From Novosphingobium jiangmenense (GTDB lineage: Bacteria; Pseudomonadota; Alphaproteobacteria; Sphingomonadales; Sphingomonadaceae), in assembly GCF_015694345.1 (NCBI RefSeq), contig NZ_JADQDC010000002.1, positions 1 to 64,000 on the forward strand: a stretch of DNA of 64,000 bases, given 5' to 3'. This document shows, piece by piece, positions 21,853 through 36,612 of this stretch (position 1 is its first letter; each line of letters opens with the position of its first letter). The notes below the pieces were generated by a model. The model was not told the DNA's origin, searched no databases, and worked only from the letters and a program-made list of their open reading frames with translations. A program made the position numbers and the translations under genes.

Positions 21853-22299
21853 TCAGGTCAGCCGCACCAGCGCTTCGCCCTTGGCGACAAGCGTGCCATT
21901 GGGAACGAGGACCTCTCCGATGCGCCCGCTGCGTCCGGCATGAACGGGGTTCATCAGCTTCATGGTCTCGACGATGCCGATCACGGTCTCCGGGCCGACT
22001 TCGTCACCCGGTTGCACGAACGGCGGCGCACCGGGCTGGGGGGCGTGGTAGAACGTGCCGGGGAGAGGTGAGCAAATGGCGTCGGGATCGGCCTCGGCTC
22101 TAGCGGTATCGGCGGCTACTTCCGCCGCCGATCCGGCCCACTGCCATTCCTGCGTCACGCCACTGTCGGAACTATCGCCCTTGGCCACGCGAAGGCGGAA
22201 GCGGCGGGTCGACAGGTCGAGTTCGCGATAGCCCGATTTCTCGAGGATCGCGGCGATCTCGGCGATGTCTTCGTGGGTGAGGGGCAGGTCGTCAGTCAT
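21853..22299 (-). CDS. biotin carboxyl carrier protein
   Basis: A 148-residue AccB-like carrier. The biotinylation motif is VETMKLMNPV with Lys at 114; the usual A-M-K is T-M-K, as in several AccB-type proteins. The domain begins at ICSPLPGTFYHAPQPGAPPFVQPGDEV. The N-terminal 50 residues (LTHEDIAEIAAILEKSGYRELDLS) resemble the AccB dimerisation segment. It lies seven bases after the Tm-1-like gene and one base before the biotin carboxylase gene. It shuttles carboxybiotin between the two catalytic subunits of this operon. Confidence 0.9.
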   Translation of the reverse strand: MTDDLPLTHEDIAEIAAILEKSGYRELDLSTRRFRLRVAKGDSSDSGVTQEWQWAGSAAEVAADTARAEADPDAICSPLPGTFYHAPQPGAPPFVQPGDEVGPETVIGIVETMKLMNPVHAGRSGRIGEVLVPNGTLVAKGEALVRLT

Positions 22300-22306
22300 T
22301 TCCGGA

Positions 22307-23524
22307 TCAGTTCTTTGCAGCCAGCATCTCGCGCGCGGCCGCGATCACGGCGCTCGAGAAGGCTTCGTCGTTGAAGTGGGAATCGATGGCGGTGACGGGC
22401 ACGCCCTCGGGCATGACCTGTGCCAGGTATTCGGCGAATGGGCCGGGAACCGAGAGGTCCTGAAGGTGCCCGGTCTCGCTATCGTGGCTGGAGAAGCCCT
22501 TGAGCGGCGTGAACACCCGGACCGGGCCGTTCGCTTCGCGCACATTTGCGGCGAGGTGATCGGCCAGTCTTTTCAGGTCCTCGATGCCGGTACGCACCGC
22601 AGTCAGCTGCGGATTGTGCTCATGATAGCGGCGCCCCGGAAACTGCTGGCGCGATGCATCGATCGGCCCGCCGATGATGAAATCGGCGTTGCCGGGGGCG
22701 AGGATCGTGGGAATGCCCTTGCGCAGTGCCGGGCGTCCGCGATCGGGTCCGGAATCCGCCAGCCCGCCAAACAGGTGATCGAGGATCTCGGTCTGCGAAA
22801 GATCGAGCACCAGCGCCACATCCTTGTCGGTGGCGAGGCCATCCAGCGTAGGTCCGCCGGCGCCCGAGGAATGGAACACCATGACCTCGCAGCCATCGCT
22901 CTCGAGCGCCTGACGGATGCGCTTCACGCTCATTTCGGTGGTGCCGAGCGTGGTGATCAGGACCAGCGGCTTTTCCGGTCCCTTGTCGCGGTCATAGCCC
23001 TTGGCCATGCCGGCAAGGGCATTGGCAGCATTGCGGAAAACGTCGCGGCTGATCGTGTTGATGCCGGAAATGTCCGTCACCGCGTTCATCATCGCGATGT
23101 CCTTGACGCCCATGTACGGCTTGGTGAAGCCCGAGGCCATGGTCGAGACGATCAGTTTGGGCAGGCCATAAGGGAAGCTCTGCATCAGCGCTCCTGCCAA
23201 TGCCGAACCCATCGAGCCGCCGACCGCGAGGATGCCGGAAACCGGATGCTTTGCGTCCCACTGGTGCGCGGCGGCAATGGCGCCGCGGATCATGGCGTCC
23301 TGGCATTTGCCTTCGTGCCCCAGTGCGCGGACATCCTCGATCGTCATGCCACCCGCTTCGGCGACCATCTCCGGCGAGATTTCCGCACCGCCGACACTGC
23401 GGCGAACGCTGGGATCTAGGTGGACCACTTCGACGCCTGCGGCTTCGAGCGAGGCGCGGGTGAAGCGGGATTCCTCTTCCTTGGTATCCTGGGTGCAGAT
23501 GAACAGGACGCTCGGTTTCGACAT
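22307..23524 (-). CDS. Tm-1-like ATP-binding (UPF0261) protein
   Basis: A 405-residue protein of the UPF0261/Tm-1 N-terminal family. In plant Tm-1 this part binds ATP and the family enzyme reaction is not established. It begins KPSVLFICTQDTKEEESRFTR. Other conserved parts are ILAVGGSMGSALAGALMQSFPYGLPKLIVSTMASG, LVLITTLGTTEMSVKRIRQAL and VMVFHSSGAGG. The start ATG at 23524 has GGAGAGGA before it; longer in-frame starts would run under the divergent IclR gene. It leads the carboxylase operon. The TIM-barrel partner that often accompanies this family is absent, and a carboxylase takes its place. Confidence 0.85.
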   Translation of the reverse strand: MSKPSVLFICTQDTKEEESRFTRASLEAAGVEVVHLDPSVRRSVGGAEISPEMVAEAGGMTIEDVRALGHEGKCQDAMIRGAIAAAHQWDAKHPVSGILAVGGSMGSALAGALMQSFPYGLPKLIVSTMASGFTKPYMGVKDIAMMNAVTDISGINTISRDVFRNAANALAGMAKGYDRDKGPEKPLVLITTLGTTEMSVKRIRQALESDGCEVMVFHSSGAGGPTLDGLATDKDVALVLDLSQTEILDHLFGGLADSGPDRGRPALRKGIPTILAPGNADFIIGGPIDASRQQFPGRRYHEHNPQLTAVRTGIEDLKRLADHLAANVREANGPVRVFTPLKGFSSHDSETGHLQDLSVPGPFAEYLAQVMPEGVPVTAIDSHFNDEAFSSAVIAAAREMLAAKN

Positions 23525-23638: not shown

Positions 23639-24439
23639 ATGCTGGAACGCCGGGTCAAGACCGTGCGCGCGCTGGAGCGTGGACTGGACGTGCTGATCGA
23701 GGTGCAGACGAGAAAGGCGGCGAGCCTTCACGAACTGCATCAAGCGACAGGATTGCCTAAGGCCACGCTGTTGCGAATGCTCGTGACTCTGGGTCAAAAA
23801 GGGCTCGTGTGGCAGCGCCTGGCCGACGGAGCCTATCTTCCGCATGTGGACCGGATCGAGCGCGCCTCGTTCACGTCTGCGGCCCACATTGCCGAAGTGG
23901 CCTCCCCGCACATGAAGGCCCTGTCGACCAAAGTGGCATGGCCGTCAGTGCTTGCGGCGCCGCGACTCGATCACATGGAGATCCTCGAGACCAACAGCCC
24001 GCTGTTCCGGCTCGACTCCGCGATCCTCGGTCCAGTTGGAGTCAAGCTGTCCTACATTCACACGGCCACCGGGCGGGCCTATCTCGCGGCTTGCGGTGAT
24101 GCTGAGCGGGACTCGATTATCGACCGACTGCGACCCGCAAACCCGCCCGAGGGGAGTGAAGCCGAACTGCGCCAGATGTTGCAGCAGGTGAGGCAGCGCG
24201 GGTACGCTACGCGCGATCCTCTCCTACCGTGGCCTGATCGCTCGAAACAGCTTGTGCTGCGCGATGGCCGCCGCTCCATGGCGGTGCCGATCATGGTCGG
24301 CGGTTCCCCGATCGCGACGATCAACGTCACGTGGCCCGGTCGTCGAGGTGCCGACGAAGCGGTCGTCCAGCGTCATCTCGACGCGCTGAAGGCAACGGCA
24401 CGGGCAATCGCGGTAGCACTAGAGGCGAACCCGAGTTAG
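23639..24439 (+). CDS. IclR-family transcriptional regulator
   Basis: A 266-residue regulator. The N-terminal winged helix includes LHELHQATGLPKATLLRMLVTLGQKGLVWQR; the C-terminal effector domain includes VGVKLSYIHTATGRAYLAA. IclR proteins commonly control aromatic and acid catabolism. It is divergent from the Tm-1/carboxylase operon, with 114 bases between the starts, and precedes the MDR dehydrogenase on the same strand, so it may control both. The effector pocket cannot be assigned from sequence. Confidence 0.88.
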   Translation: MLERRVKTVRALERGLDVLIEVQTRKAASLHELHQATGLPKATLLRMLVTLGQKGLVWQRLADGAYLPHVDRIERASFTSAAHIAEVASPHMKALSTKVAWPSVLAAPRLDHMEILETNSPLFRLDSAILGPVGVKLSYIHTATGRAYLAACGDAERDSIIDRLRPANPPEGSEAELRQMLQQVRQRGYATRDPLLPWPDRSKQLVLRDGRRSMAVPIMVGGSPIATINVTWPGRRGADEAVVQRHLDALKATARAIAVALEANPS

Positions 24440-24519: not shown

Positions 24520-25539
24520 ATGCCGATGCGCCAGTGGGTGATTTCCGCAGGCTCGACGTCGCTTGACGATTTGCGACTGGACGAGGCCGACATTCCGAAA
24601 CCCGGTCCGGGCGAAGTGCTCGTGCGCGTGCGGGCCTGCTCGCTGAACTATCGCGACCAGATCATTCCGCTCGGCTTCTACATGGGCGGAGTTGTCCAGA
24701 ACGACACGGTGCCGCTTTCGGATGGTGCTGGCGAGATCGCGGCTGTCGGCGACGGCGTGTCAGACCTCAAGATCGGCGATCGTGTGGCCGGTATCTTCTT
24801 CCAGGACTGGATGGATGGCCCGCCAAACCCCGGCATGGGCGTGGCGCTGGGCGCACCTCCCGCTCCGGGCATGCTGCAGGATTACGTCGTTCTGCCCGAG
24901 CGTGGCGTCGTGAAGCTGGCCGAGACACTGGACTACACGCAGGCAGCTTGCCTTCCCTGCGCCGGTGTCACGGCGTGGAACGCGCTGATGGAAGGGCCTC
25001 GGCCGGTCAAGGCGGGCGATACAGTGCTGGTTCTCGGAACCGGGGGCGTCTCATTGCTTGCCCTGCAGATTGCCAAGGCTGCCGGGGCAACCGTGATCGC
25101 CACATCATCGTCGGATGAAAAGCTCGAGCGGGTAAAGGCGCTCGGCGCCGATCACGTGATCAATTACCGCACAACGCCAGAATGGGGTGCCGAAGCAGCG
25201 CGCCTTGCCGGTGGCGGCGTGGACAAGGTGGTAGAGGTCGGCGGCGCGGGCACGCTCAAGCAGTCGATCGCGGCAGTGGGCTTTGCTGGTGAGATCGCTC
25301 TGATCGGCGTGTTGACCCGCGAGGGCGACACCAACCCGCATGGCCTGATGTTCAAGGGTGCTTCGATCCGGGGGATCTTCGTCGGCTCGAAGGGCATGGC
25401 CCAGAGGCTGAATGCCTTCATCGACCAGCATGGCATCAAGCCGGTCGTCGACAAGGCTTTCCCAATCGAAAACGCCCGTGATGCCTACGCCTATCAGTCG
25501 TCGGCGGGCCTGTTCGGGAAAGTCGCAATAACGCTTTGA
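24520..25539 (+). CDS. MDR-family NAD(P)-dependent alcohol dehydrogenase/quinone oxidoreductase
   Basis: A 339-residue medium-chain dehydrogenase. The catalytic domain has KPGPGEVLVRVRACSLNYRDQ; the coenzyme domain has VLVLGTGGVSLLALQIAKAAGATVIATSSSDEKL. The usual catalytic Cys near position 40 is missing (SLNYRD), and no structural zinc cluster is visible. It therefore belongs with zinc-free reductases of the quinone oxidoreductase/enoyl reductase type. AGGGAG at 24511-24516 precedes ATG 24520; ATG 24526 is an alternative. It starts 80 bases after the IclR gene. Confidence 0.82.
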   Translation: MPMRQWVISAGSTSLDDLRLDEADIPKPGPGEVLVRVRACSLNYRDQIIPLGFYMGGVVQNDTVPLSDGAGEIAAVGDGVSDLKIGDRVAGIFFQDWMDGPPNPGMGVALGAPPAPGMLQDYVVLPERGVVKLAETLDYTQAACLPCAGVTAWNALMEGPRPVKAGDTVLVLGTGGVSLLALQIAKAAGATVIATSSSDEKLERVKALGADHVINYRTTPEWGAEAARLAGGGVDKVVEVGGAGTLKQSIAAVGFAGEIALIGVLTREGDTNPHGLMFKGASIRGIFVGSKGMAQRLNAFIDQHGIKPVVDKAFPIENARDAYAYQSSAGLFGKVAITL

Positions 25540-25591: not shown

Positions 25592-26137
25592 ATGACGCAG
25601 TTGCTTGGCTTCGGCCAGCCCTTTGGCGGTGTGATGCAGACGGCCTTCGTGGTCGAGGACATCCGCGCTTCGATCGCCCATTTCCAGCGCGATTGCGGTG
25701 CGGGACCGTTCTTCCTGCTCGATCACTTTCTCGCCCCGGACCAGTTCTATCGCGGCGCGCCTTCGACCGCCGATGTCACCATCGCCATGGGCTTTGCCGG
25801 GCACATGCAGATCGAACTGATCCAGCCGCTGGACGCAAATCCTTCGGTCTATCGCGAGACCATTGAGCAGCGCGGCTATGGCTTTCACCACTTCGGCATA
25901 GCCTGTGCCGATGTCGAAGCGGACCTCGTTGATTACAACGCGCGCGGCTACGAGCTTGCGTTCAAGGCGGCTGTCCCGACCGGCGGGAGCGTGGCCTATC
26001 TCGAGGGCGGCGATGCCGCTGCCCCCGGCTTTCTCGAACTGATCCCGGCAACGCCCGGCATGGACGCACACTTCACCGCGATGTGGCGCGCCTCGCAAGG
26101 CTGGGACGGTTCCGAACCTGTCCGGCCGTTCATCTGA
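25592..26137 (+). CDS. VOC-family (glyoxalase fold) protein
   Basis: A 181-residue vicinal-oxygen-chelate protein. It opens MQTAFVVEDIRASIAHFQRDCGAGPFFLLDHF, typical of a first beta-alpha-beta-beta-beta unit. The second unit contains GYGFHHFGIACADVEADLVDY and ends in FLELIPATPGM, where the His and Glu residues can bind a metal. Members include epimerases, extradiol dioxygenases and isomerases. It lies in the aromatic/ketone gene cluster between a reductase and an MFS permease. The reaction is not identifiable. Confidence 0.78.
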   Translation: MTQLLGFGQPFGGVMQTAFVVEDIRASIAHFQRDCGAGPFFLLDHFLAPDQFYRGAPSTADVTIAMGFAGHMQIELIQPLDANPSVYRETIEQRGYGFHHFGIACADVEADLVDYNARGYELAFKAAVPTGGSVAYLEGGDAAAPGFLELIPATPGMDAHFTAMWRASQGWDGSEPVRPFI

Positions 26138-26174: not shown

Positions 26175-27416
26175 ATGACCACGGGCACAACCAGAAGCGG
26201 CGGATACCAGGTGTGGGTGACCGCGCTGCTGAGCCTGAACTTCGGCATCCTGTTCTTTGATCGCAACGCGCTCAACTTCCTCATGCCGTTCGTCCAGCCT
26301 GACTTGCACCTCACCAACACCCAGGTCGGCATGTTCAGCTCGGCCCTCTCGCTGACGTGGGCACTGTCAGGCCTGCTGGTCGGCCGGATTTCCGACAAGC
26401 TCGGGTCGCGCAAGCCGGTGGTTGTCGTGGCGACTGTCGCCTACTGCCTGTGCTCGTTCATTTCGGGTGCCGCTTCCTCGTTCCTGATGCTGCTCGGCGC
26501 CCGCCTGCTCATGGGTGCGGCCGAGGGCGGGGTCATGCCGGTGAGCCACTCGATGATCGTGTCGGAAGTTGCGCCCGAGCGTCGCGGACTTGCCATGGGC
26601 GTGGCCCAAAACCTTGGCTCCAACCTACTTGGTTCCGGTCTCGCGCCCATCCTGCTGGTACCGGTCGCCGTCGCAGCCGGATGGCGCACCGGCTTTTATC
26701 TTGCAGCCGTGCCGGGCCTCGTCACTGCCGCCCTGATCTGGTTCACCCTGCGCGAACCGCCGGTCGAGGCGCATGACGACGCCTCGCCGCGCATAACCCT
26801 GCGCGAGGCCTTCGCGCATCGCAACGTGATCCTCTGCGCCCTGATCTCGATCCTGCTTGTCTCGTACCTTGTCGTCTGCTGGGCATTCATGCCGCTTTAC
26901 CTGACCAAGGCGCGCGGCTTTGCCCCTGAGACGATGGGCTGGCTGATGGCAACGCTCGGCATCTCCGCAGGCCTCGGCAGCTTCGTCGTCCCCGCGATCT
27001 CGGACGCGATCGGACGCCGCCCGGTGATGATCTTCTTCTCCTTCCTCGGCGTGATCCTGCCTCTGGGCGGCTTGTACTATGAAGGTTCGACCTGGGTGCT
27101 CGCTGCAATCTTCTTCTTCGGTTGGGGCCTCAACGGCCTGTTCCCGATGTTCATGGCGACCATCCCCGCGGAATCGGTCGACCCGCGCCTGACTGCAACG
27201 CTGACCGGCGTGGTGATGGGGACTGGCGAGGTTCTCGGCGGCGTACTCTCGCCGTTTCTCGCGGGCAGCCTTGCCGATGTCTACGGCCTGTCCGCGCCGC
27301 TCTGGCTCATGTTCGGCTGCACCATCCTGGCCGGACTGCTCACGCTTGGACTGATCGAATCCGCGCCGCGCGTAGTTGCCCGGCGCGCCGGACCGGCCAT
27401 GGCCTTCGGGGCCTGA
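26175..27416 (+). CDS. MFS transporter (organic anion type)
   Basis: A 413-residue permease with twelve predicted helices. The N-terminal FFDRNALNFLMPFVQPDLHLTNTQVGMFSSALSLTWALSGLLVGRISDKLGSRKP matches the anion:cation symporter group, whose members import aromatic acids, hexuronates and similar anions; GRISDKLGSRK is the loop 2-3 signature. The GAGGAAA-like Shine-Dalgarno is GAGGGGAAAG upstream of ATG 26175. It is 37 bases after the VOC gene and 18 bases before the AraC gene. It would be the inner-membrane importer for the pathway (inference). Confidence 0.85.
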   Translation: MTTGTTRSGGYQVWVTALLSLNFGILFFDRNALNFLMPFVQPDLHLTNTQVGMFSSALSLTWALSGLLVGRISDKLGSRKPVVVVATVAYCLCSFISGAASSFLMLLGARLLMGAAEGGVMPVSHSMIVSEVAPERRGLAMGVAQNLGSNLLGSGLAPILLVPVAVAAGWRTGFYLAAVPGLVTAALIWFTLREPPVEAHDDASPRITLREAFAHRNVILCALISILLVSYLVVCWAFMPLYLTKARGFAPETMGWLMATLGISAGLGSFVVPAISDAIGRRPVMIFFSFLGVILPLGGLYYEGSTWVLAAIFFFGWGLNGLFPMFMATIPAESVDPRLTATLTGVVMGTGEVLGGVLSPFLAGSLADVYGLSAPLWLMFGCTILAGLLTLGLIESAPRVVARRAGPAMAFGA

Positions 27417-27434: not shown

Positions 27435-28370
27435 ATGGGCGAACTTCTCAGATTTCACACGCGTGACGTGGCACCGCCGCAGCGTGCACGGTACTGGAAC
27501 GAAATTGCCGACAGGGTCTTCACGGGCTCATTCGTAAACGTGCCCGGAGAGGACTTTTCGGGAAAGATGCTGGCCTGGCGGGTCGGCGAACTCGACATGA
27601 TCCGCACCGACTCCACCCACTCGGCCGTGGGGCGCACACCGCTTCCGCAGAACGAGGAGCGGCTGATCCTGCACCTGCAGTGCCGCGGCACGAGCCAGCA
27701 TTCGCAGAAGCAGGCGGAATGCGTGCTCGAACCCGGCGACTTCGTACTCGCCAGCCCGCACTCGCCCTACTCGATCAAGCTGACCGGCCATGAGATGCTG
27801 GTCGTCGAGTTCCCCCGTGCCCCCTTGGCCGAGCGTTTCCCCGGTGTCGACGACGCCTTGCTCCAGCGCATGTGCGGAGCAACGCCCGGTGGCAGGGTGT
27901 TTCACGATTTCCTGCTGTCGCTGTGGCAGCAGGGTGAGGGCGCAGCCGAAGATCCCGAGTGGGAAGCCGGGGTCAACGCGGTGTTCTACGATCTTGCCGC
28001 CATGGCCATGCGCGGCTCGCAGCGCCCGGTCGTCGCCAATGGCGATATCGAACTGCGTCGGCGCGTGCTGGCAACGGTCGCCGCCAATCTCGCCGACCCT
28101 GCATTGCGCACGGCTTCGATCGCCGATGCCTGCAGCATTTCGGTCCGCACAGTGCAGAATGTCTTTGCCGCAATGGGCACGACGCCCACGGCCTACATCC
28201 TCGAACAGCGGCTCCGCCGCTCTGCGGACCGGCTCGTCGCGCGGCCCGATGCCAGCATCACGGAGATCGCGTTCGAACTGGGTTTCAACGACAGCGCCTA
28301 CTTCACCCGCTGCTTCCGGCAGCAGTTTGGCGCGGCCCCGCGCGACTGGCGGATGGGCCGCATGACGTAG
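27435..28370 (+). CDS. AraC-family transcriptional regulator
   Basis: A 311-residue regulator. The N-terminal half is the AraC_binding_2-like cupin domain (FSGKMLAWRVGELDMIRTDST and LILHLQCRGTSQHSQKQAEC). The C-terminal half holds two HTH motifs, ASIADACSISVRTVQNVFAAMG and ASITEIAFELGFNDSAYFTRCFRQQFG, the latter with the classical AraC ending. It follows the MFS gene by 18 bases and precedes the TonB receptor, so it likely controls the surrounding uptake and catabolic genes. Confidence 0.9.
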   Translation: MGELLRFHTRDVAPPQRARYWNEIADRVFTGSFVNVPGEDFSGKMLAWRVGELDMIRTDSTHSAVGRTPLPQNEERLILHLQCRGTSQHSQKQAECVLEPGDFVLASPHSPYSIKLTGHEMLVVEFPRAPLAERFPGVDDALLQRMCGATPGGRVFHDFLLSLWQQGEGAAEDPEWEAGVNAVFYDLAAMAMRGSQRPVVANGDIELRRRVLATVAANLADPALRTASIADACSISVRTVQNVFAAMGTTPTAYILEQRLRRSADRLVARPDASITEIAFELGFNDSAYFTRCFRQQFGAAPRDWRMGRMT

Positions 28371-28528
28371 GGGAATGCTGCGCAGCATCGAAGTTTGCGC
28401 AGCAGTCCTGATCGGCTTGCGCGTGAGTGCAAGCGACAAGTTCCGCCAGTGCGTATCAGGCTGGCGTGATTCCGGGGCAGGGGTCCCGGTCTGGCAATCA
28501 ACCACGAAACAACAGGGAGAGGAAAACC
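28371..28528. promoter_or_regulatory. leader before TonB receptor, with a 14-bp perfect palindrome
   Basis: This 158-base gap contains ATGCTGCGCAGCAT (28375-28388), a perfect palindrome five bases after the AraC gene stop. It could be an operator; a loopless palindrome without a T tract is a poor terminator. The rest has no ORF with support. AGGGAGAGGA before ATG 28529 is the receptor ribosome-binding site. Confidence 0.4.
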
Positions 28529-31090
28529 ATGAGAATTGCATCGGTTTCCATCGCAGCACTGGCAACGGCCCTCGCCGTGCCGGCGTTTGCTCAAGAGCAG
28601 GCTCAGGCCGAAAACAGCAGCACCGGCGGTATCGCAGAGATCGTCGTGACGGCCCAGAAGCGCGCGGAAAACGTCCAGGACGTGCCAATTGCAATCACCG
28701 CTTTCACCGCCGGCGCCTTGCAGGAGCGCGCGGTGGGCGACGTCTCGGCGCTCTCGGGCATCACGCCTAACGTCACCCTTGACGCATCGACCCCGTTCTC
28801 CGGCTCAAGCGCCGTGCTCGGCGCGACTATCCGCGGCATTGGTTCCTCCGACTTCGCGTTCAACATCGACCCTGCCGTCGGCGTCTATCTTGATGGCGTC
28901 TATCTCGGCCGTTCGATCGGCGCCAACCAGGATCTGCTCGATGTCGAGCGGATCGAAGTCCTCAAGGGGCCGCAGGGCACCTTGTTCGGTCGGAACACCA
29001 TCGGTGGCGCGATTTCGATCGTGACGCATACGCCGGGCAAGGAGTTCCACGTCAAGGGCGACGTTACCGTCGGCCGCTTCAATCGCGTCCAGGCTCGTGG
29101 CCTGGTCGACATTCCGCTGACCGAAGGCCTCAGCTCGTCGGTCGCTTTCGGCATCCACAAGCGCGATGGTTTCCAGAAGCGCATCGCCTATCCCAATGCC
29201 GGGGCCAACGACAGCTTCACCCAGTTCCCTGCTTCCGGGTATGAAACCCGCAGTCGCCAGGGTGGCGACAATTCGTGGAACCTGCGTGGCAAGCTGCGCT
29301 GGGACAACGGCACAAGCTTCCGCGCTACGTTGAGCGGCGACTACACCAACATCGATCAGGATTCGACCGCGAACACCGTTCTCGCTGTCACGCCGATCCC
29401 GGGGCCGTTCGCGGGCGTTGCCGCCAACAACATCCCCGGCACCGCGCTTGACGTCGTAACGGGCAGTTCGGGCTTCCTGTTCGCAGGCCTCTACAACTTC
29501 TGCATCGGGGCGACCGCCGACCAGATCGCGGCCCGCAATGCGACCGCACTGTGCGGACCGCGTTCTAGCGTGAACGGCTACAACACCATTCCGGGTCTTG
29601 CCAGCCGCAACGTCGACGGCGATCCGTTCAACAATCTGCTGCCGTACGACGGTCGTTGGGTGAACACCGACAAGGATACGACTTACGCCAATGGCAACAA
29701 CTTCTCGAAGCTGAAGCAGTGGGGTCTGGGTCTCAACCTTGAGTATGACCTTTCGGACAATGTCATGCTCAAGTCGATCACTTCGTATCGCGAAGTCGAT
29801 TTCAAGGCGGGCGTCGACCTCGACAACTCCCCGCTGCCGATCCTCCAGACCAGCTTCATCGTCGACCAGTACCAGTTCAGCCAGGAAGTCCAGCTGACCG
29901 GCTCGGCAATGGACGGGGCGCTGAACTTCGTGCTCGGCGGCTATGGCTTCAAGGAAAAGGGTGATCTGCGCGACTTCGTGACCTTCTCGGCCGGTCTGCT
30001 GCAGGTCGATGGTCCGGGCAAGGTCGATACGGAAGCCTATGCAGGCTTCGGCCAGATTGACTGGCGCGTCAGCGATCTGATCGGCATTTCGGTCGGTGCC
30101 CGCTACACCAAGGAAAACAAGCAGTATGACGGCGCCCAGGCTGACGCGAACGGCTTCAACTACAAGCTGTTCAACTGCCTCGCCACCGATCCCGCGACCG
30201 GCAATCCCAGCTCCGCCTGCGCGGCGGCTGTCGGCTTCCCGATTCCGTCGCAGCCGTTCCGCTATTATCCGACTTCGCCGAACAAGCAGACGTTCGATGA
30301 TTTCTCGTACAAGCTCGGCCTGCAATTGCATCCGACCGAAGACGTAATGGCCTATGGCTCGTTCTCGCGCGGGTACAAAACCGGTGGCTGGACGACCCGC
30401 CTTTCCAACCCGCTGCCAGTTGCGCCGACCTTTGGTGAAGAAGTTGCCGAAACCTTCGAAGCCGGCGTGAAGTCGACCTTGCTGGACCGCAGGCTGCAGC
30501 TCAACGCCGCAGTGTTCACCACCAAGTACAAGGGCATCCAACTGAACTTCCAGCAGGGGGTGTCTCCGACCATTCAGAACGCTGGTGACGCCCGCATCAA
30601 GGGCTTCGAAATCGAGATGGTCGCAGCCCCGGCCGATGGCTTCACCATCACCGCTTCGGCGGGCCATCTTGATGCCTACTACACGAGCGTGCTGGCTCCG
30701 GCGCAGGTTGCGCCCAATCCGTTCCAGCTCGGCGTGCAGAAGGGGTCGGACTTGCCGAAGGCGCCGTCATGGAAGTTCAACGTCGCTCCGCGCTTCGAAA
30801 TGGCAATCGGCGATGGCAAGATCGTCGCGCTGGCAGACTGGACCCACACCACGGGCATGCGCAACGACACCGAGGGCACGATCCTGCTGCTGCGTCCGAC
30901 GACCGACATCGTCAACGCCAGCCTGCAGTATCAGGCACCCGACAACCAGTGGAATCTCACGGTTGGCGGCACCAACATCACCAACGAGCGCTATCTGGTG
31001 ACCGGTCAGGCGCAGATCGCGGGCGGCCAGATTTACGGCACCTACAGCCGTCCGGCCGAATGGTACGTCAGGCTCGGCTTCGAGTTCTGA
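28529..31090 (+). CDS. TonB-dependent outer-membrane receptor
   Basis: An 853-residue receptor. The signal peptide MRIASVSIAALATALAVPAFAQE is followed by a TonB-box-like EIVVTAQKRAENVQDVPIAI. The plug domain includes VGVYLDGVYLGRSIGANQDLLDVERIEVLKGPQGTLFGRNTIGGAI, and a 22-strand barrel ends in aromatic F (WYVRLGFEF). It imports a large or scarce ligand across the outer membrane. It sits directly before three dioxygenase-like cupins and behind an AraC gene, so I infer that it takes up the aromatic substrate of the cluster rather than a siderophore. GGAGAGGA at the start decides ATG 28529. Confidence 0.93.
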   Translation: MRIASVSIAALATALAVPAFAQEQAQAENSSTGGIAEIVVTAQKRAENVQDVPIAITAFTAGALQERAVGDVSALSGITPNVTLDASTPFSGSSAVLGATIRGIGSSDFAFNIDPAVGVYLDGVYLGRSIGANQDLLDVERIEVLKGPQGTLFGRNTIGGAISIVTHTPGKEFHVKGDVTVGRFNRVQARGLVDIPLTEGLSSSVAFGIHKRDGFQKRIAYPNAGANDSFTQFPASGYETRSRQGGDNSWNLRGKLRWDNGTSFRATLSGDYTNIDQDSTANTVLAVTPIPGPFAGVAANNIPGTALDVVTGSSGFLFAGLYNFCIGATADQIAARNATALCGPRSSVNGYNTIPGLASRNVDGDPFNNLLPYDGRWVNTDKDTTYANGNNFSKLKQWGLGLNLEYDLSDNVMLKSITSYREVDFKAGVDLDNSPLPILQTSFIVDQYQFSQEVQLTGSAMDGALNFVLGGYGFKEKGDLRDFVTFSAGLLQVDGPGKVDTEAYAGFGQIDWRVSDLIGISVGARYTKENKQYDGAQADANGFNYKLFNCLATDPATGNPSSACAAAVGFPIPSQPFRYYPTSPNKQTFDDFSYKLGLQLHPTEDVMAYGSFSRGYKTGGWTTRLSNPLPVAPTFGEEVAETFEAGVKSTLLDRRLQLNAAVFTTKYKGIQLNFQQGVSPTIQNAGDARIKGFEIEMVAAPADGFTITASAGHLDAYYTSVLAPAQVAPNPFQLGVQKGSDLPKAPSWKFNVAPRFEMAIGDGKIVALADWTHTTGMRNDTEGTILLLRPTTDIVNASLQYQAPDNQWNLTVGGTNITNERYLVTGQAQIAGGQIYGTYSRPAEWYVRLGFEF

Positions 31091-31099
31091 TGCACTGAC

Positions 31100-31145
31100 A
31101 GGAAGCGCGGGCGGGGTTCGTCCCCTCATCCTCGCCCGCGTTCCT
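31100..31145 (+). other. intercistronic GC-rich hairpin after TonB receptor
   Basis: Arms AGGAA-g-CGCGGGCG (31100-31113) and CGCCCGCG-TTCCT (31133-31145) form 13 pairs with one bulged base and a loop of about 19 bases. No T tract follows, so read-through into the cupin genes is expected. The hairpin may protect the 3' end of the receptor mRNA or reduce downstream expression. Confidence 0.55.
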
Positions 31146-31169
31146 CACAAATGAGAACGGAGAGAGACA

Positions 31170-31703
31170 ATGCCTGAAGCGGCGCACACGGAATTCTGGA
31201 AGGACATCAAGCCGGTCGACAAGGTCTTCCGCGAAGGCGGCCTGCCCGAAGTCTACATGCCCAAGATTGCCGAGGGCGACGAGCGCTACTGGGTGCCGAT
31301 CTCCGAAACCGTTTTTTCCAAGCCTGTCTGGATCAGCCCGGCCAAGAACATGTGGGCCGATGTCCTGATGAGCAAGAAGGCGGGCCTCGTGAACCGCCAC
31401 TATCACCCGCACCCGATCTGGGCCTACACCATCAGCGGCAAGTGGGCCTATCTCGAGCACAGCTGGACCGCGACCGCCGGCGACTTCGTCTATGAAACGC
31501 CGGGCGAGAGCCACACGCTGGTCTGCTACGAACACGAGGACCCGATGAAGGTGTTCTTTGTCGTCTCCGGCCCGCTGATGTGGCTGGATGACGAGGGCAA
31601 CACCGTCGGCCATTACGACGTGTTCGACTACATGAAGGCCGCGCGCGAGCACTACGATGCCGTCGGCATCGGTGCCGACTACGTTGACACGCTGATCCGT
31701 TGA
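31170..31703 (+). CDS. 2,4'-dihydroxyacetophenone dioxygenase-like cupin (copy 1)
   Basis: A 177-residue single-domain cupin of the ChrR-like/2,4'-dihydroxyacetophenone dioxygenase family. The metal site is NRHYHPHPIWAYTISG (a HxHxH run) plus ETPGESHTLV in the second motif. Known members cleave the C-C bond between carbonyl and hydroxymethyl carbons of 2,4'-dihydroxyacetophenone to 4-hydroxybenzoate and formate, using non-haem iron. It is the most divergent of the three tandem copies. AGAGAGACA precedes ATG 31170; copy 2 starts 13 bases after its stop. Confidence 0.8.
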   Translation: MPEAAHTEFWKDIKPVDKVFREGGLPEVYMPKIAEGDERYWVPISETVFSKPVWISPAKNMWADVLMSKKAGLVNRHYHPHPIWAYTISGKWAYLEHSWTATAGDFVYETPGESHTLVCYEHEDPMKVFFVVSGPLMWLDDEGNTVGHYDVFDYMKAAREHYDAVGIGADYVDTLIR

Positions 31704-31716
31704 GAGGACCTGCATA

Positions 31717-32262
31717 ATGAGCACCGCCACCGTGATGACCGCGCCGCCTTCGGACAAGGCAGAGATCGTCGACGTTCCTTTCGCGCACAAGGACCTGGTC
31801 AAGCGTCTCAGCCCCGGCGGTCGCTACATCGACGCCCAGACCGATGTCGACAGCCCTTGGGTGCCATTCGGCGAGAACGCCGCGATCAAGCACCTTGCCT
31901 TCGACGTCCGCCAGAACCTGTTTTCCAACATCCTGTGGGTGAAGGGCCCCGGCGTGATCGGCACGCACTTCCATCGCGGCACGATCACCATGGTCTGTCT
32001 CGAAGGCAGCGTGCGCTATCTTGAATACGACTGGGTGGCGACACCCGGCGGCCTGATCCTCGAAACGCCCGGAGAGAGCCACACGCTCGTCACCGACCAC
32101 CCGGAAGGCTGCAAGCTCTTCGGATGGATGCAGGGGCCGATCGAGTTCTACGACGAGAACGCCGTGCTGGTCGATACCACCGACGTCTGGTGGTTCATCA
32201 ACCACTACGAGACCTACTGCCGCGAGAACGGCATCGCCATCAATCCCAAGCTCTATCTCTGA
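31717..32262 (+). CDS. 2,4'-dihydroxyacetophenone dioxygenase-like cupin (copy 2)
   Basis: A 181-residue paralogue in the tandem cupin set. The first metal motif is GPGVIGTHFHRGTITMV and the second LETPGESHTLV. It shares long near-identical runs with copy 3 (WVPFGxNAAIxHLAFDVR, RYLEYDWV, NHYETYCREN), so these two arose by a recent tandem duplication. The order and short gaps (13 and seven bases) indicate one operon. Copies 2 and 3 could act as a heteromer or on different side-chain variants of the substrate (inference). Confidence 0.8.
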   Translation: MSTATVMTAPPSDKAEIVDVPFAHKDLVKRLSPGGRYIDAQTDVDSPWVPFGENAAIKHLAFDVRQNLFSNILWVKGPGVIGTHFHRGTITMVCLEGSVRYLEYDWVATPGGLILETPGESHTLVTDHPEGCKLFGWMQGPIEFYDENAVLVDTTDVWWFINHYETYCRENGIAINPKLYL

Positions 32263-32269
32263 GGCCACC

Positions 32270-32803
32270 ATGGGTACCATGACCGCGCCGCCTTCGGGCG
32301 CCTACAAGATCGTCAACGTCCCCGAACTCTACGGTGACCTCATCCGCGCCAAGGGCGTCGAGGGCACCTACGTCGGTTCCTCGGAAGTCGAGAGCCCGTG
32401 GGTTCCCTTCGGCGACAACGCCGCGATCCGTCACCTAGCCTTCGACGTGCGCGAGAACGTCTATGTCAACGTGCTGTGGATCAAAGGGCCGGGCGTCATC
32501 GGCACCCACAAGCACCGCGGCAAGGTCTGGGCCATCGGCCTCGAAGGCTCGTTCCGTTACCTCGAATATGACTGGGTTTGCCGTCCGGGCGATTTCATCA
32601 CCGAAACGCCTGGCACCGCGCACACCCTCGTCACCGATGACCCGAATGGTATGAAGGCCCTGTTCCACATGCAGGGCGCCAACGAGTTTTTCGACGAGCA
32701 CGGCAACCATGTCGAAACGCTCGACGTGTGGTGGTTCATGAACCACTACGAGACCTACTGCCGCGAGAACAACATCGCGATCAATCCTGCGCTCTGTCTC
32801 TGA
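32270..32803 (+). CDS. 2,4'-dihydroxyacetophenone dioxygenase-like cupin (copy 3)
   Basis: A 177-residue third paralogue, closest to copy 2. Metal motifs are GPGVIGTHKHRGKVWAI and ITETPGTAHTLV. The second-motif Glu-Ser-His of copies 1 and 2 is Thr-Ala-His here, so the metal-binding His is kept but its neighbourhood changes. The C-terminus INPALCL parallels INPKLYL of copy 2. Seven bases separate it from copy 2 and ten from the Rieske gene. As for copies 1 and 2, the substrate is inferred from family only. Confidence 0.8.
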   Translation: MGTMTAPPSGAYKIVNVPELYGDLIRAKGVEGTYVGSSEVESPWVPFGDNAAIRHLAFDVRENVYVNVLWIKGPGVIGTHKHRGKVWAIGLEGSFRYLEYDWVCRPGDFITETPGTAHTLVTDDPNGMKALFHMQGANEFFDEHGNHVETLDVWWFMNHYETYCRENNIAINPALCL

Positions 32804-32813
32804 GGGCACAACC

Positions 32814-33908
32814 GTGAGCAGCGGTCCCGTTCCGAAACTCTCCGCCCAGCCTCAGGCTACGTACTTGCGCAACACCTGGTACGTGGCAGGCTGGGCAAGT
32901 GATCTCGGCGCGGAACCGCAGCAGCGCACGTTCCTCGAAGAACCGGTTGCGCTTTTCCGTGATGCGGAAGGCGTAGCGCAGGCCATCACCGGGCGCTGCC
33001 CGCACCGCTTCGCCCCTCTCGGCCATGGCACCGTGATCGATGGCGCCTTGATGTGCCCCTACCACGGCCTGCGCTTCAGCGGGGAGGGACGCTGCATCCA
33101 CAATCCCCACCCCGGCGGCCAGCTTCCCGATGCGCGGCTGCAAGTCTATCCGCTGGTCGAGCGCCACGCCCTGCTGTGGATATGGATGGGCGATCCGGAG
33201 AAAGCCGACCCGGCCCTGATCCCCGACTTCGCCTGGCTGTCCGACCCGAAGTGGGAGGCCGTGCGCGGCGCTACTGTCGCCGAAGGCCACTACGAACTCT
33301 ACAGCGACAACATCCTCGATCTCAGCCACGCCAACTTCGTCCACCCCGCGCTTGTCGCCAGCGCCTTCACCGAAGGCGAGCGTAAGTTCTGGCAGGACGC
33401 GGAGAGTGTCTTTGCAGAATACGTGCGGCTGAACGACGAACTTTCCGTCGGCATCTCCGCAGTCATGGGCACCGAGGGGCGCAAACAGGACTTCTACGGC
33501 CTCGTCCAGTGGCACGCCCCCGCCGTCCTCTACTTCGATTTCCGCGCAGGCGATCCCGGCACACCGCGCGAGCAATGCACTCTGCTGCCCTCGCTCCACG
33601 CTTTCACGCCAGAGACGCCGGATACAACCCACTACTTCTGGGCCACCGCCCGCGACTACAAGCTGGGCGACGCCGAGTTCACCGCCGCCATGCGTGGCGC
33701 GCTCGAATTCGCGTTCGAGCAGGAAGACATGCCGATCATCCGCGACAGCCACCGCCTGATGCGCGGACAGGACTTCTGGGACCTGCGCCCGCTGATCCTC
33801 AATGGCGACGGCGGCGGCGTCCGCGCCCGCCGCATGCTGCAGCGCCTGATCGATCGCGAACGACAATCAATACAAGAGGATGCCAATGGGAACGCTCGAC
33901 AGGTTTGA
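32814..33908 (+). CDS. Rieske aromatic-ring-hydroxylating oxygenase, alpha subunit (VanA-like)
   Basis: A 364-residue Rieske non-haem iron oxygenase. The [2Fe-2S] cluster is held by C62-P-H64 and C81-P-Y-H84 (GRCPHRFAPLG and MCPYHGLRF). The mononuclear iron site lies in YSDNILDLSHANFVHPALV. The length and N-terminal LRNTWYVAGWASDL match the VanA/dicamba O-demethylase group, which act with a separate reductase. No ferredoxin/reductase gene is nearby, so it must borrow one. The start is GTG 32814, ten bases after the last cupin. Its 3' end overlaps the SDR gene by 23 bases. An O-demethylation or hydroxylation of an aromatic is likely. Confidence 0.86.
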   Translation: MSSGPVPKLSAQPQATYLRNTWYVAGWASDLGAEPQQRTFLEEPVALFRDAEGVAQAITGRCPHRFAPLGHGTVIDGALMCPYHGLRFSGEGRCIHNPHPGGQLPDARLQVYPLVERHALLWIWMGDPEKADPALIPDFAWLSDPKWEAVRGATVAEGHYELYSDNILDLSHANFVHPALVASAFTEGERKFWQDAESVFAEYVRLNDELSVGISAVMGTEGRKQDFYGLVQWHAPAVLYFDFRAGDPGTPREQCTLLPSLHAFTPETPDTTHYFWATARDYKLGDAEFTAAMRGALEFAFEQEDMPIIRDSHRLMRGQDFWDLRPLILNGDGGGVRARRMLQRLIDRERQSIQEDANGNARQV

Positions 33909-34725
33909 CATCAAGGGCCGCTCCGCGCTGGTCACCGGCGCCGCATCGGGCATCGGCCTCGCCTATGCCGAAGCCATGGCCGAGGCCGGCGCTGCCGTCA
34001 CGCTGACCGACATCGACGCCGATGGCGCCTCGCGTGAAGCCGCCCGCCTGCGCGAACTGGGGTATGAGGTCCGGGCCGACCGGCTCGATGTGTCCAGCTG
34101 GGACGACGTCGCCGCCGCCTTCGACGCGCACGACCGCGCCTATGGCGGCCTCGACATCTGCTTTGCCAACGCCGGCATCGACACCGGCGCAGGCTTCTGG
34201 AATCCCGCAGGCCACCGCAACGAGGACGGCCAGGTCGATACCTACGACCACAACCGCTGGGACCGCTCGATCCAGGTCAACCTCAACGGCGTGTTCTACA
34301 CCGTCAGCAACGCCGTACGCATCATGAAGAAGGAGGGCCGTGCCAACGGTCGTACCGGCGGTTCGATCATCACCACCGCCTCCAACGCCGGCCTCGTCAC
34401 CGAACCCATCGTCGGCTTGCCCTACATGCCCGCCAAGGCTGGCGTCCTGCACATGGTCCGCGCCCTCGGCCTCGAACTTGCAGAGTTCAAGATCCGCATC
34501 AACGCCATCGCGCCCGGCCCCTTCGTCACCAACATCGGCGGAGGCTGGCTCAAGAAGGACCCGGTCGCCCGCGCAGCATGGGATGCCATCGTTCCTTTAG
34601 GCTCGGTGGCCGAGACGGAGCAGCTCAAGCCGCTCGCCCTCCTGCTCGCGTCCGATGCGTCCGACTACATGACCGGCAGCCATGTCGTGATCGACGGCGG
34701 CATGATGCTCGGCAAGTACAAGTAA
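33886..34725 (+). CDS. short-chain dehydrogenase/reductase
   Basis: A 279-residue classical SDR. The cofactor motif is ALVTGAASGIGLAYAEAMA with TDIDADG at the second strand, suggesting NAD. NAGIDTGAGFWNP is the NAG motif, and catalytic Ser and Tyr-xxx-Lys lie in TTASNAGLVTEPIVGLPYMPAKAGV. I chose ATG 33886 because AGAGG lies seven bases upstream; ATG 33880 abuts it. The insert after NAG (NEDGQVDTYDHNRWDRS) is longer than usual. It probably oxidises a secondary alcohol of the pathway substrate. Confidence 0.85.
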   Translation: MGTLDRFDIKGRSALVTGAASGIGLAYAEAMAEAGAAVTLTDIDADGASREAARLRELGYEVRADRLDVSSWDDVAAAFDAHDRAYGGLDICFANAGIDTGAGFWNPAGHRNEDGQVDTYDHNRWDRSIQVNLNGVFYTVSNAVRIMKKEGRANGRTGGSIITTASNAGLVTEPIVGLPYMPAKAGVLHMVRALGLELAEFKIRINAIAPGPFVTNIGGGWLKKDPVARAAWDAIVPLGSVAETEQLKPLALLLASDASDYMTGSHVVIDGGMMLGKYK

Positions 34726-34735
34726 GGCCAGCCCC

Positions 34736-35743
34736 ATGCGCGCCGCCGTGATGCAGGGCCTGCACCAGCCCTTGGCCGTCGAGACCATCGCCGATCCCAC
34801 GCCGGGTGAGGGCGACGTAATCGTCAAGGTTGGCCGTTGCGGCATCTGCGGCTCCGACCTGCACATGACCGAGGACCCGGCCTACGGGCAGGGCGCAGGC
34901 TCCATCCTCGGCCACGAGTTCGCCGGTGAAGTCGTCGCACTCGGCAAGGGCGTCGAGGGCCTCAGGACCGGCGATCTCGTCTCGGTCGTCCCCCTGCAGA
35001 GCTGCGGCCAGTGCCACTACTGCCGCACGGGCGAAGTCCAGTGGTGCGAGAAGTTCGGCCTCCAGGGCGGCGGCTATGCCGAATACGCGCTGACCAGGCC
35101 CAACCAGTGCGTCCGCCTCCCCAAGAGCGCCAGCCTTGCCGATGGTGCCATCGTCGAACCACTCGCCGTCGCCCTCCACGGCGTTGCCCTCAGCCGGATG
35201 AAGATCGGCGACAAGGTCCTTGTCCTCGGAGCCGGCCCCATCGGCCTCGCCGTCGCCTTCTGGGCGCGCCGCTACGGGGCAGGGCGCGTGGTCGTGCAGG
35301 ACCTCGCCGAATGGCAACGCGATCGCGCCTTGCAAATGGGTGCGCACGATTTCGTCGTCGATCCCGCCGACCCCATCGGCAGCGCCGAACGCGCGCTTGG
35401 CGGCAAGGCCGACGTAGTGTTCGAATGCGTCGGCGTTCCCGGCCTGATCGCGCAAGCCGTCGATCAGGTGCGCAACGATGGCACGATCGTCCTGCTCGGC
35501 CTTTGCACCCGGCCCGACACCTTCAACAGCTTCGCCATGCTGTCAAAGCAGGTCCGGTTGATCACCTCTGCCTTCTTTACCCGGCAGGAATACGAAGCTG
35601 CCCTTGATGCGCTTGACCGCGGCGCTGTCGAACCGCGTCTGCTGGTAACCGACACGATTTCGCTCGATGCAACGCCCAATGTGTTCGAGAGCCTGCGCAA
35701 GCGCACGCACCAGTGCAAGGTACTGATAAACCCGGCTGAATGA
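34736..35743 (+). CDS. zinc-dependent alcohol dehydrogenase (Tdh/iditol-type MDR)
   Basis: A 335-residue medium-chain dehydrogenase. Catalytic zinc ligands sit in GRCGICGSDLHM and GHEFAGEVV; structural zinc is likely held by the Cys-rich SCGQCHYCRTGEVQWCEKFG. The coenzyme motif is VLVLGAGPIGLAVAFWARRYGAGRVVVQD. It begins ten bases after the SDR stop and ends four bases into the next possible ORF. Two oxidoreductases of different types in tandem suggest sequential alcohol to ketone or aldehyde steps. Confidence 0.88.
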   Translation: MRAAVMQGLHQPLAVETIADPTPGEGDVIVKVGRCGICGSDLHMTEDPAYGQGAGSILGHEFAGEVVALGKGVEGLRTGDLVSVVPLQSCGQCHYCRTGEVQWCEKFGLQGGGYAEYALTRPNQCVRLPKSASLADGAIVEPLAVALHGVALSRMKIGDKVLVLGAGPIGLAVAFWARRYGAGRVVVQDLAEWQRDRALQMGAHDFVVDPADPIGSAERALGGKADVVFECVGVPGLIAQAVDQVRNDGTIVLLGLCTRPDTFNSFAMLSKQVRLITSAFFTRQEYEAALDALDRGAVEPRLLVTDTISLDATPNVFESLRKRTHQCKVLINPAE

Positions 35744-35769
35744 TCGACCGGGACAGTGGGAGAAGACCT

Positions 35770-36612
35770 ATGGCGATCACATCCTTTGCCGGCCGCAATG
35801 CCTTCGTTACGGGCGGAGCTTCAGGCATCGGTCTGGGGATTGCCAAGGCTCTGGCCAAACGCGATGCCTTCGTCATCATCGCCGACCTGCGCCCCGACCA
35901 TATCGGCAAGGCCCTCAAGGCGATGACGGCCGAGGGCCTTGGCGAAAGCGTGATCGCCATGGAGCTCGATGTCACCGATCGCGCCGCCTATGCCGATGCC
36001 GCCCGGCGGCTTGATGACGAACTTGGGGGCGTCGACATCCTCGTCAACAACGCCGGGGTCGGTGTTGAAGGACCGGTGCTGGAGGCGACTTACGCAGACT
36101 GGGACTTCGGTCTCGGCGTCAATCTCGGGGGCGTGGTCAACGGTCTCCAGTCGATCCTTCCACAGATGATCGCGCACGGACGCGGCGGTCATGTCGTGAA
36201 CACGGCGTCCCTCGCCGCCTCGGTGGTAATGCCCGGCCATCTGGCTATCTATGCCGCTGGCAAGGCCGCGGTGCTCAACCTGTCCGAGAACATGCGGGCG
36301 GACCTTGCCGCAAAGGGCATCGGTTGCAGCGTCTTGTGCCCCGGCTTCGTGCGGTCGAACATCCACGAGGCTGCCCGAAATCGTCCCGCGCACTTGCGTG
36401 AGGGCAGTGGTTTCGTCGCATCGGAACAGGCGCTTGCCAAGCGAGTGGTTGGCAACGACTGGATGGACCCCGATCTGGTCGGAGAGATGGTTGCCGACGC
36501 CATTGTCGCGAACGAACTCTACGTCATCACGCATGGGCAGTTCGCGAACAGGATGCGCGAGCGAGCAGAAGCAGTGTTATCAACCACCCCGCCAAGCGCG
36601 ATCCAGTTCTGA
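35770..36612 (+). CDS. short-chain dehydrogenase/reductase, C-alpha-dehydrogenase-like
   Basis: A 280-residue SDR with NAFVTGGASGIGLGIAKALA, VNNAGVGVEGPV and catalytic YAAGKAAV after NTASLAASV. From memory, the run GVNLGGVVNGLQSILPQMIAHG and the later GIGCSVLCPGFVRSNIHEAARNRPAHL resemble LigD/LigL-type alcohol dehydrogenases of lignin beta-aryl ether breakdown in sphingomonads. I chose ATG 35770 because GGGAGAAG lies seven bases before it; ATG 35740 overlapping the ADH stop is the alternative. It ends the plus-strand catabolic operon. Confidence 0.83.
   Translation: MAITSFAGRNAFVTGGASGIGLGIAKALAKRDAFVIIADLRPDHIGKALKAMTAEGLGESVIAMELDVTDRAAYADAARRLDDELGGVDILVNNAGVGVEGPVLEATYADWDFGLGVNLGGVVNGLQSILPQMIAHGRGGHVVNTASLAASVVMPGHLAIYAAGKAAVLNLSENMRADLAAKGIGCSVLCPGFVRSNIHEAARNRPAHLREGSGFVASEQALAKRVVGNDWMDPDLVGEMVADAIVANELYVITHGQFANRMRERAEAVLSTTPPSAIQF

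Follow-up and report, generated by a model that had tools for sequence, protein, structure and literature searches.

The window analysed here, 64,000 nucleotides of Novosphingobium jiangmenense (RefSeq assembly GCF_015694345.1, contig NZ_JADQDC010000002.1, positions 1 to 64,000 of the forward strand), carries three consecutive cupin genes, c1, c2 and c3, which are candidates for the cleavage of lignin-derived aryl ketones and are related to 2,4'-dihydroxyacetophenone dioxygenase (DAD). The genes are arranged head to tail, with gaps of 13 bp between c1 and c2 and 7 bp between c2 and c3. An initial annotation, made from the DNA letters, had described them as three tandem dioxygenase-like cupins that all keep an HxH motif and the histidine of the second motif. 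Both points hold: open reading frames (ORFs), matches to the Pfam family Cupin_7 and alignment scores far above chance confirm three same-strand, three-histidine cupins, and residue mapping places the ligands at H77/H79/H115 in c1, H84/H86/H122 in c2 and H80/H82/H118 in c3. The Cupin_7 scores are 38.4, 27.3 and 26.5 bits, respectively, against a curated cut-off of 27, c3 falling just below it. Pairwise scores exceed those of shuffled sequences by 15 (c1-c2), 16 (c1-c3) and 52 (c2-c3) standard deviations.

The proteins c2 and c3 share 62% of their residues (110/177), and c1 is 32% identical to c2 (51/159) and 31% identical to c3 (51/164). The same annotation had read c2 and c3 as recent duplicates with long near-identical blocks, a view that the data contradict. 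Their DNA identity is 69%, the longest exact word in common has 30 bases, and the two most similar 20-codon windows have DNA identities of 88%, close to the C-terminus, and 82%. Among relatives, c2-c3 identity spans 49.2-67.2% with a median of 57.6, as compared to ortholog medians of 84.5 for c1, 80.3 for c2 and 80.5 for c3. The silent-site distance between c2 and c3 is 0.71 in the window, and the within-locus distance ranges from 0.58 to 1.86 with a median of 0.90 (50 of 51 pairs, where computable). From the c2 gene of the window to 75 orthologs the median silent-site distance is 0.80, with 57 of them exceeding 0.71; from c3 to 54 orthologs it is 0.91, with 41 exceeding that value. Because so many orthologs lie beyond the c2-c3 distance, silent sites cannot date the duplication. 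A recent duplication is ruled out by the ortholog and paralog identities, the tree described below and the silent-site distances; judged from these sequence comparisons, c2 and c3 are paralogs of old origin, whose silent sites are too worn for dating yet exclude a recent event.

With regard to family placement, c1 shares 110 of 173 residues with the DAD of Alcaligenes sp. 4HAP (E 1.3e-83 to PDB 4p9g), while the corresponding counts are 52 of 160 for c2 and 52 of 159 for c3 (about 33%). We built a tree of 128 rows by a quick search, in which several flagged long branches leave the deep joins unsure. Herein, c1 groups with the characterised DAD in a 30-row clade with a support of 100 in the Shimodaira-Hasegawa-like approximate likelihood-ratio test (SH-aLRT). 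Both c2 and c3 fall outside this clade into a separate 54-row clade (SH-aLRT 97) whose basal member is a Halomonas sequence, and the c2 orthologs form a 31-row clade (SH-aLRT 99) arising among c3-like sequences.

Residue numbering and roles were taken from the DAD structure paper (PMC4219425). According to that source, DAD is a dimer whose Fe(II) is bound by three histidines; in its reaction scheme, the alpha-hydroxyketone chelates the iron before O2 binds, and C-C cleavage then yields two acids. Trp61 and Asp63 were modelled there as holding the phenol hydroxyl group, Phe129 was placed beside the ring and the peroxy intermediate, and Val82, Tyr93 and Phe129 were termed invariant in the alignment. 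Our own alignment comprised 63 c1, 81 c2 and 61 c3 distinct sequences, 45 more distant homologs and 9 DAD-like rows, one of which is a fragment gapped at some positions. His76, His78, His114, Tyr93, Glu95 and Glu108 are invariant in all c1 (63/63), c2 (81/81) and c3 (61/61) sequences, and likewise in the more distant homologs (45/45). The proteins c1, c2 and c3 each retain the iron histidines together with the catalytic tyrosine and the gate glutamate. Moreover, c1 keeps Trp61, Asp63 and Phe129 in 63/63 sequences and Ser49 in 61/63 (one Thr, one gap). Throughout the c2 and c3 sequences, Asp63 is replaced by Asn, Trp61 by Phe or Tyr, Ser49 by Ile and Trp137 by Phe, each in 142 of 142. The position of Phe129 separates the two paralogs, being Gly in 81/81 c2 and Phe in 61/61 c3 sequences; this exchange should open the c2 pocket near the iron. 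At the position of Val82, Ile is present in 76/81 c2 and Val in 61/61 c3 sequences.

AlphaFold models of c2 and c3 reached, in the best of five predictions each, a predicted local distance difference test (pLDDT) score of 90.7 and 90.6 and a predicted template modelling (pTM) score of 0.79 and 0.82, respectively; two of the five predictions had a pLDDT of 75.5-76.5 for c2 and 76.3-76.7 for c3. The top Foldseek match of both models is DAD (E 2.2e-15 for c2, 3.4e-14 for c3). VIA-align ranked first 3ebr, a cupin of unassigned function, with Z 21.8 and 22.2 and a root mean square deviation (rmsd) of 1.8 and 1.7 over 150 residues for c2 and c3. It was followed by two DAD entries (Z 19.8-20.9), 3cjx, 2o1q and 3bal, down to Z 17.7, and after a gap by rows at Z 14.4 or below. 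For c2, the dimethylsulfoniopropionate (DMSP) lyase DddK appears only far down the list (Z 11.7-11.8).

To describe the gene surroundings, the best 80 of 197 c2 matches were fetched, 62 of which had full 8-kb flanks; neighbouring genes were scored by per-gene identity thresholds, and since all loci were picked via c2, its own frequency is uninformative. The core partners of c2 are SDR1, a short-chain dehydrogenase (SDR), and a zinc alcohol dehydrogenase (ADH; Table 1). Solved structures related to the latter include a ketose reductase as well as (R,R)-butanediol and sorbitol dehydrogenases; the highest-ranking one, 4ej6, has no named function. Among the 62 full-flank loci, c1 occurs in 47 and c3 in 45: all three cupins are found in 37, c1 and c2 in 10, c2 and c3 in 8, and c2 alone in 7. 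The Rieske oxygenase is present at 60% identity or more in 32 loci (c3 accompanies it in 31 and c1 in 29) and below 60% or absent in 30; any Rieske match was seen in 37. We dropped this enzyme as the maker of 2-hydroxyacetophenone, as its nearest solved relative, a dicamba O-demethylase, makes O-demethylation likelier. The IclR gene was found in 31 of the 88 loci searched, many of which are too short to reach it. The start assigned to the TonB-dependent receptor is the Met of a stretch that resembles a signal sequence, chosen by visual inspection. A promoter and terminator scan of 28300-36800 gave nothing above chance.

Table 1 Genes of the cupin operon and of the divergent operon. Locus counts refer to the 62 c2 loci with full flanks.
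Feature	Position	Strand	Basis and remarks
c1, DAD-type cupin dioxygenase, 177 aa	31170..31703	+	Identity to DAD, tree; Fe His, Tyr93, Glu108, Trp61, Asp63, Ser49 kept
c2, cupin of the DAD family (181 aa), pocket changed by Phe129 to Gly	31717..32262	+	Alignment, tree, model
c3, DAD-family cupin, sister lineage of c2, 177 aa	32270..32803	+	Alignment, tree, model
IclR-family regulator, first of the plus-strand series	23639..24439	+	Pfam IclR_C, HTH_IclR; 114 bp from the divergent UPF0261 gene
MDR-family alcohol/quinone dehydrogenase	24520..25539	+	31/62 loci
Glyoxalase-superfamily (VOC) protein	25592..26137	+	Pfam Glyoxalase_4; 51/62 loci
MFS transporter	26175..27416	+	NCBIfam MFS models, those shown all below cut-offs; 52/62 loci
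AraC-family regulator (AraC_binding_2 + HTH_18)	27435..28370	+	Pfam; 37/62 loci
TonB-dependent receptor, 79 bp before c1	28523..31090	+	Pfam TonB_dep_Rec, Plug; 43/62 loci
Rieske oxygenase, VanA/dicamba O-demethylase type	32814..33908	+	Pfam VanA_C, Rieske; nearest solved DdmC, E 2.4e-68
SDR1, short-chain dehydrogenase, c2 core partner	33880..34725	+	60/62 loci; nearest solved is carbonyl reductase 3ctm
Zinc alcohol dehydrogenase, butanediol/sorbitol dehydrogenase kind, c2 core partner	34736..35743	+	59/62 loci
Second SDR, less conserved	35740..36612	+	Overlaps the zinc ADH gene by 4 bp
UPF0261 protein, probable single-component aryl-ketone kinase (MarK-like)	22307..23524	-	Alignment to PDB 9mpy; putative link to MarK
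Biotin carboxyl carrier subunit	21853..22299	-	Family match
Biotin carboxylase subunit	20517..21851	-	Family match
Carboxyltransferase subunit (HMGL-like/PYC_OADA)	19048..20520	-	Family match
HAD-family phosphatase	18209..19051	-	Family match

The divergent minus-strand genes of Table 1 form an operon that is probably built like the acetovanillone kinase-carboxylase-phosphatase pathway. We set the start of the UPF0261 gene at 23524; its longest ORF reaches 23911, runs into the IclR gene and is too long. The UPF0261 protein is near-identical to PDB 9mpy (404 residues aligned, 834 bits). We infer that this protein and 9mpy are MarK-type kinases; a search of open-licence PubMed Central (PMC) papers for UPF0261 or 9mpy as MarK gave nothing on it. 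A single-component kinase, MarK, is used by N. aromaticivorans according to the available parts of two reports (PMC9618137, PMC13101465).

The linkage of the two operons was followed in a sample of 119 Novosphingobium genomes, counting cupin matches to c2 at E up to 1e-15 and UPF0261 matches at E up to 1e-100. A cupin match is present in 40 genomes, of which 30 carry all three, 3 carry two and 7 carry one (five c2, one c3-like and one c1-like). The UPF0261 gene occurs in 34 genomes, 32 of which have cupins; the other two are assemblies of 390 and 760 contigs that are 52% and 81% complete. It is found in 32 of the 33 genomes that have at least two cupin matches versus none of the seven with a single match, and the sole multi-cupin genome lacking it is an assembly of 430 contigs that is 99% complete. 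The presence-absence association yields 3.6e-19 in Fisher's test, uncorrected for kinship. Every pair on the same contig is divergent (31/31) and 3.0-13.5 kb apart; the 32nd pair lies on different contigs. Of the 24 genomes or records reached via the loci, 15 have a UPF0261 match (E up to 1e-20) and 9 have none. Three of the seven DAD-clade genomes contain a distant UPF0261 protein (30-33%), each far from the cupin.

A 100% match to c2 is present in Novosphingobium subterraneum DSM 12447, 25 of 149 genomes of the wider family have a match, and c1 as a query matched 28 of 398 genomes in a sample of the phylum. The earlier statement that single copies are the norm for this enzyme roughly stands outside the family, where 20 of 23 c1-matching genomes carry one match; the triple set in 30 of the 119 genus genomes shows that it is no quirk of the strain. 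In Halomonas sp. PA16-9, a c3-like gene (75%), SDR1 (61%), ADH (64%) and an MFS gene are consecutive on one replicon. On a Pseudosulfitobacter plasmid, a c3-like gene (58%) adjoins SDR1 (49%), and ADH (53%) comes after an ABC transporter; this plasmid also has a XylR-type regulator and a 31% UPF0261 match. The core of cupin, SDR and zinc ADH hence recurs in other bacteria. Plasmids of Neorhizobium, Caballeronia and Sulfitobacter carry a single cupin whose SDR is directly next to it or one gene further. In all seven DAD-clade loci fetched from proteobacteria outside the family, an SDR is found no more than 3 kb from the cupin, and one of these loci (L160) additionally has MFS (42%), MDR (37%) and AraC-binding regulator genes. 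In Sphingobium TomTYG64, a TonB receptor accompanies the c2-like gene; vanAB and genes for the cleavage of protocatechuate are located about 8 to 12 kb away. In Rhodococcus pyridinivorans P23, two DAD-family cupins and an SDR stand beside an annotated 4-hydroxybenzoate 3-monooxygenase; this tandem pair is on a plasmid (L150, 9407-10441), and one member has a very long branch. As a separate observation, the DAD-clade genes of L157 and L159, two of the seven loci, neighbour an SDR together with genes for an aldehyde dehydrogenase and a thiamine-diphosphate enzyme. The same neighbours are annotated on the Sulfitobacter plasmid (L153), which hints at a partner enzyme that makes or breaks acyloins.

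Taken together, we consider it reasonably likely, with a probability of roughly 60%, that c1, c2 and c3 are three specialised side-chain-cleaving iron dioxygenases for lignin-derived aryl hydroxyketones, and that the ketones for c2 and c3 are produced from aryl diols via SDR1 and ADH. As all three retain the iron ligands, Tyr93 and Glu108, it is simplest to assume that they share the chemistry of DAD. The operon would allow the cell to import and degrade aryl ketones and alcohols of plant (lignin) origin. Within it, c1 would perform the classical DAD reaction, converting 4-hydroxyphenyl (perhaps methoxylated) 2-hydroxyethanones to 4-hydroxybenzoate-type acids and formate, while c2 and c3 with their reshaped pockets would use different alpha-hydroxyketones (Ar-CO-CH(OH)-R) that are probably bulkier. 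Their source is hinted at because SDR1 resembles carbonyl reductase and ADH resembles butanediol and sorbitol dehydrogenases. Yeast carbonyl reductases of the SDR and MDR types interconvert 2-hydroxyacetophenone and both phenylethanediol enantiomers. SDR1 and the zinc ADH may thus convert the stereoisomers of aryl 1,2-diols or arylglycerols to the alpha-hydroxyketones used by c2 and c3; with one SDR- or MDR-type enzyme per diol stereoisomer and a cupin thereafter, the lignin side chain would be shortened to an acid. The Rieske enzyme probably removes an O-methyl group. Metal binding, reactions, substrates and the order of these steps are thereby proposed from residues, family, clade-fixed pocket changes, gene partners and the linkage to the carboxylation operon, which are observed in the sequences. 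Three explanations of the triple set had been offered at the outset, namely different substrates, a heteromeric enzyme or a lyase-like side function. The first appears best supported, because the pocket residues differ in a fixed manner among the three clades. A lyase-like function finds no support, the nearest solved structures of stated function being the C-C-cleaving DAD and acetylacetone dioxygenase.

Several observations weigh against this interpretation. In c1, Phe43 is replaced by Ile in 59/63 sequences and Val82, termed invariant in the DAD paper (PMC4219425), by Ile in 63/63; the latter exchange is mild, and we call c1 DAD-type rather than a proven DAD. For both models, 3ebr outranks DAD by 1.3 to 2 Z units. 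The map of Tyr153 and Met156 in the C-terminal part of the pocket depends on the alignment and differs between two of them, and was therefore neither trusted nor used. None of the operon genes is shown to turn acetophenones into 2-hydroxyacetophenones. SDRs are abundant in such genomes, and the adjacency of SDR and cupin genes was counted without a chance control. The counted genomes are related, so that the co-occurrence numbers are not independent. Finally, c1 and c2 are found without a UPF0261 match in Erythrobacteraceae genomes (L054, L057, L074, L075), and the Halomonas record searched has no UPF0261 match either; judging from these cases, the cupins do not depend on the carboxylase operon.

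As an alternative, c2, c3 or both might cleave beta-dicarbonyls such as vanilloyl acetate or vanilloyl acetaldehyde in the manner of Dke1 and complete the path of the divergent operon, which we regard as unlikely. Dke1, the acetylacetone dioxygenase, is itself a C-C-cleaving dioxygenase. Among solved enzymes with a stated function, only DAD ranks closer than Dke1 (3bal; Z 17.7-17.8, rmsd 4.2-4.4), at an identity to 3bal of just 14-16%. The divergent operon should yield aryl beta-keto acids, and no acyl-coenzyme A (CoA) ligase or thiolase gene was seen among the genes of the two operons, to which the search for CoA-dependent enzymes was confined. A 2025 paper, in the excerpts available, describes the enzymes of vanilloyl acetaldehyde catabolism in N. 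aromaticivorans as still to be found, and the Phe129 to Gly exchange in c2 would offer more room near the iron. However, the c2-SDR1-ADH core occurs without a UPF0261 match in Erythrobacteraceae (L054, L057), as do c3-like, SDR1 and ADH genes on the Halomonas record, and SDR1 and a diol-type ADH would be superfluous for such a route. In a variant that we hold equally doubtful, c2 and c3 would be oxygenases that split aryl beta-keto acids or aldehydes of the vanilloyl acetate type directly into an aromatic acid and a two-carbon acid. In Novosphingobium they would then take the place of the final, CoA-dependent steps in the degradation of acetovanillone and beta-hydroxypropiovanillone. If so, the operon pair would join carboxylation- and oxygenase-based lignin-ketone routes, which would explain the tight divergent linkage.

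Turning from substrates to assembly, c2 and c3, with or without c1, could form a hetero-oligomer with one active species, a reading to which we assign a rather low probability. The genes are neighbours with gaps of 7-13 bp, c1-c2-c3 are contiguous in 41 of 80 loci, and the DAD structure is dimeric in the excerpts of PMC4219425. Against this stand the complete iron site in each protein, the occurrence of c2 without c3 in 17 of 62 full-flank loci and the single-match genomes (7 of the 40 cupin-bearing genomes of the genus, five of them with c2). An obligate heteromer is not supported by co-occurrence, as c2 can occur alone. Redundant isozymes that all run the DAD reaction for reasons of dosage are similarly improbable: c2 and c3 are predicted to have the DAD fold and all three share the metal site, but c1 is only about 32% identical to c2 and c3, the pocket residues differ between the clades while being fixed or nearly fixed within them, and losses are patchy. 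A non-enzymatic or sensing, ChrR-like role of c2 and c3 is very improbable: although the ChrR cupin-like domain is their best Pfam family, the score is weak (19.4 bits for c3 versus a cut-off of 124.5), Pfam and NCBIfam recognise cupin domains alone, and the DAD iron ligands, Tyr93 and Glu108 are invariant. Profile scores, residues and fold comparison lend no support to a lyase or ChrR-type role.

Elsewhere in the window, tandem glycine riboswitch aptamers (Rfam RF00504, 63.5 and 46.5 bits) lie at 3415-3641 on the plus strand, just before gcvT and split gcvP genes; at gathering thresholds, Rfam recognised only these two aptamers in the window, far upstream of the cupins. Downstream, a long run of sugar genes (36736-63318) includes GH36, GH68, GH32, two alpha-amylase-family genes, GH97, two LacI regulators and two TonB receptors, each followed by a tryptophan-halogenase-family gene.

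In the open-licence PMC literature, searched by title and abstract, we found no paper on the triple cupin, and the word 'cupin' is absent from the N. aromaticivorans and sphingomonad lignin papers searched by that term. A related system is cluster G-II of Novosphingobium sp. MBES04, for which the available excerpts of PMC10866074 report four tandem genes with a DAD-like gene first. The latter was the most induced of the cluster by a lignin model dimer (44.58-fold); among the compounds that activated its promoter, a phenylpropanone had the strongest effect, and 2,4'-dihydroxyacetophenone was active as well. This gene may correspond to c1, c2, c3 or a different gene. With the same iron site and clade-fixed pockets, the three cupins provide a ready panel for the determinants of substrate range. 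Furthermore, their linkage to a probable acetovanillone operon supplies candidate genes for lignin-ketone steps whose enzymes are reported as still to be found in a model lignin degrader.

Compared to the Hpe (Rhodococcus), Acv (Sphingobium SYK-6) and MarK (N. aromaticivorans) systems, the divergent operon has, by family, the same three-part biotin carboxylase and HAD phosphatase, and UPF0261 occupies the place of the kinase. It differs in that no two-component kinase is among its genes and in its linkage to the cupin operon, which is undescribed in the accessible parts of PMC9618137 and PMC13101465. The unannotated Ralstonia cupins 3ebr and 3cjx have a fold at least as close to c2 and c3 as that of DAD (Z 19.7-22.2) at 17-24% identity, with no function assigned. 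Dke1 (3bal) and the putative acetylacetone dioxygenase 2o1q share the cupin fold (Z 17.7-18.3) at 11-16% identity, and evidence for their beta-dicarbonyl substrates is lacking for c2 and c3. The DAD of Alcaligenes sp. 4HAP (4p9g/5bpx) shares with c1 the iron ligands, Tyr93, Glu108, Trp61, Asp63 and Phe129 and differs by F43I and V82I. With c2 and c3 it shares the predicted fold, the iron ligands, Tyr93 and Glu108; these two differ by lying outside the DAD clade and by W61F/Y, D63N, S49I and W137F, c2 also by F129G. Aromatic dioxygenases that cut the side chain rather than the ring are described as a rare class in the excerpts of PMC4219425. While DAD genes usually come singly, the Novosphingobium operon has three: the class of chemistry is ordinary, and what is unusual is that the triple is conserved, has diversified and is linked to a probable operon for aryl ketones.

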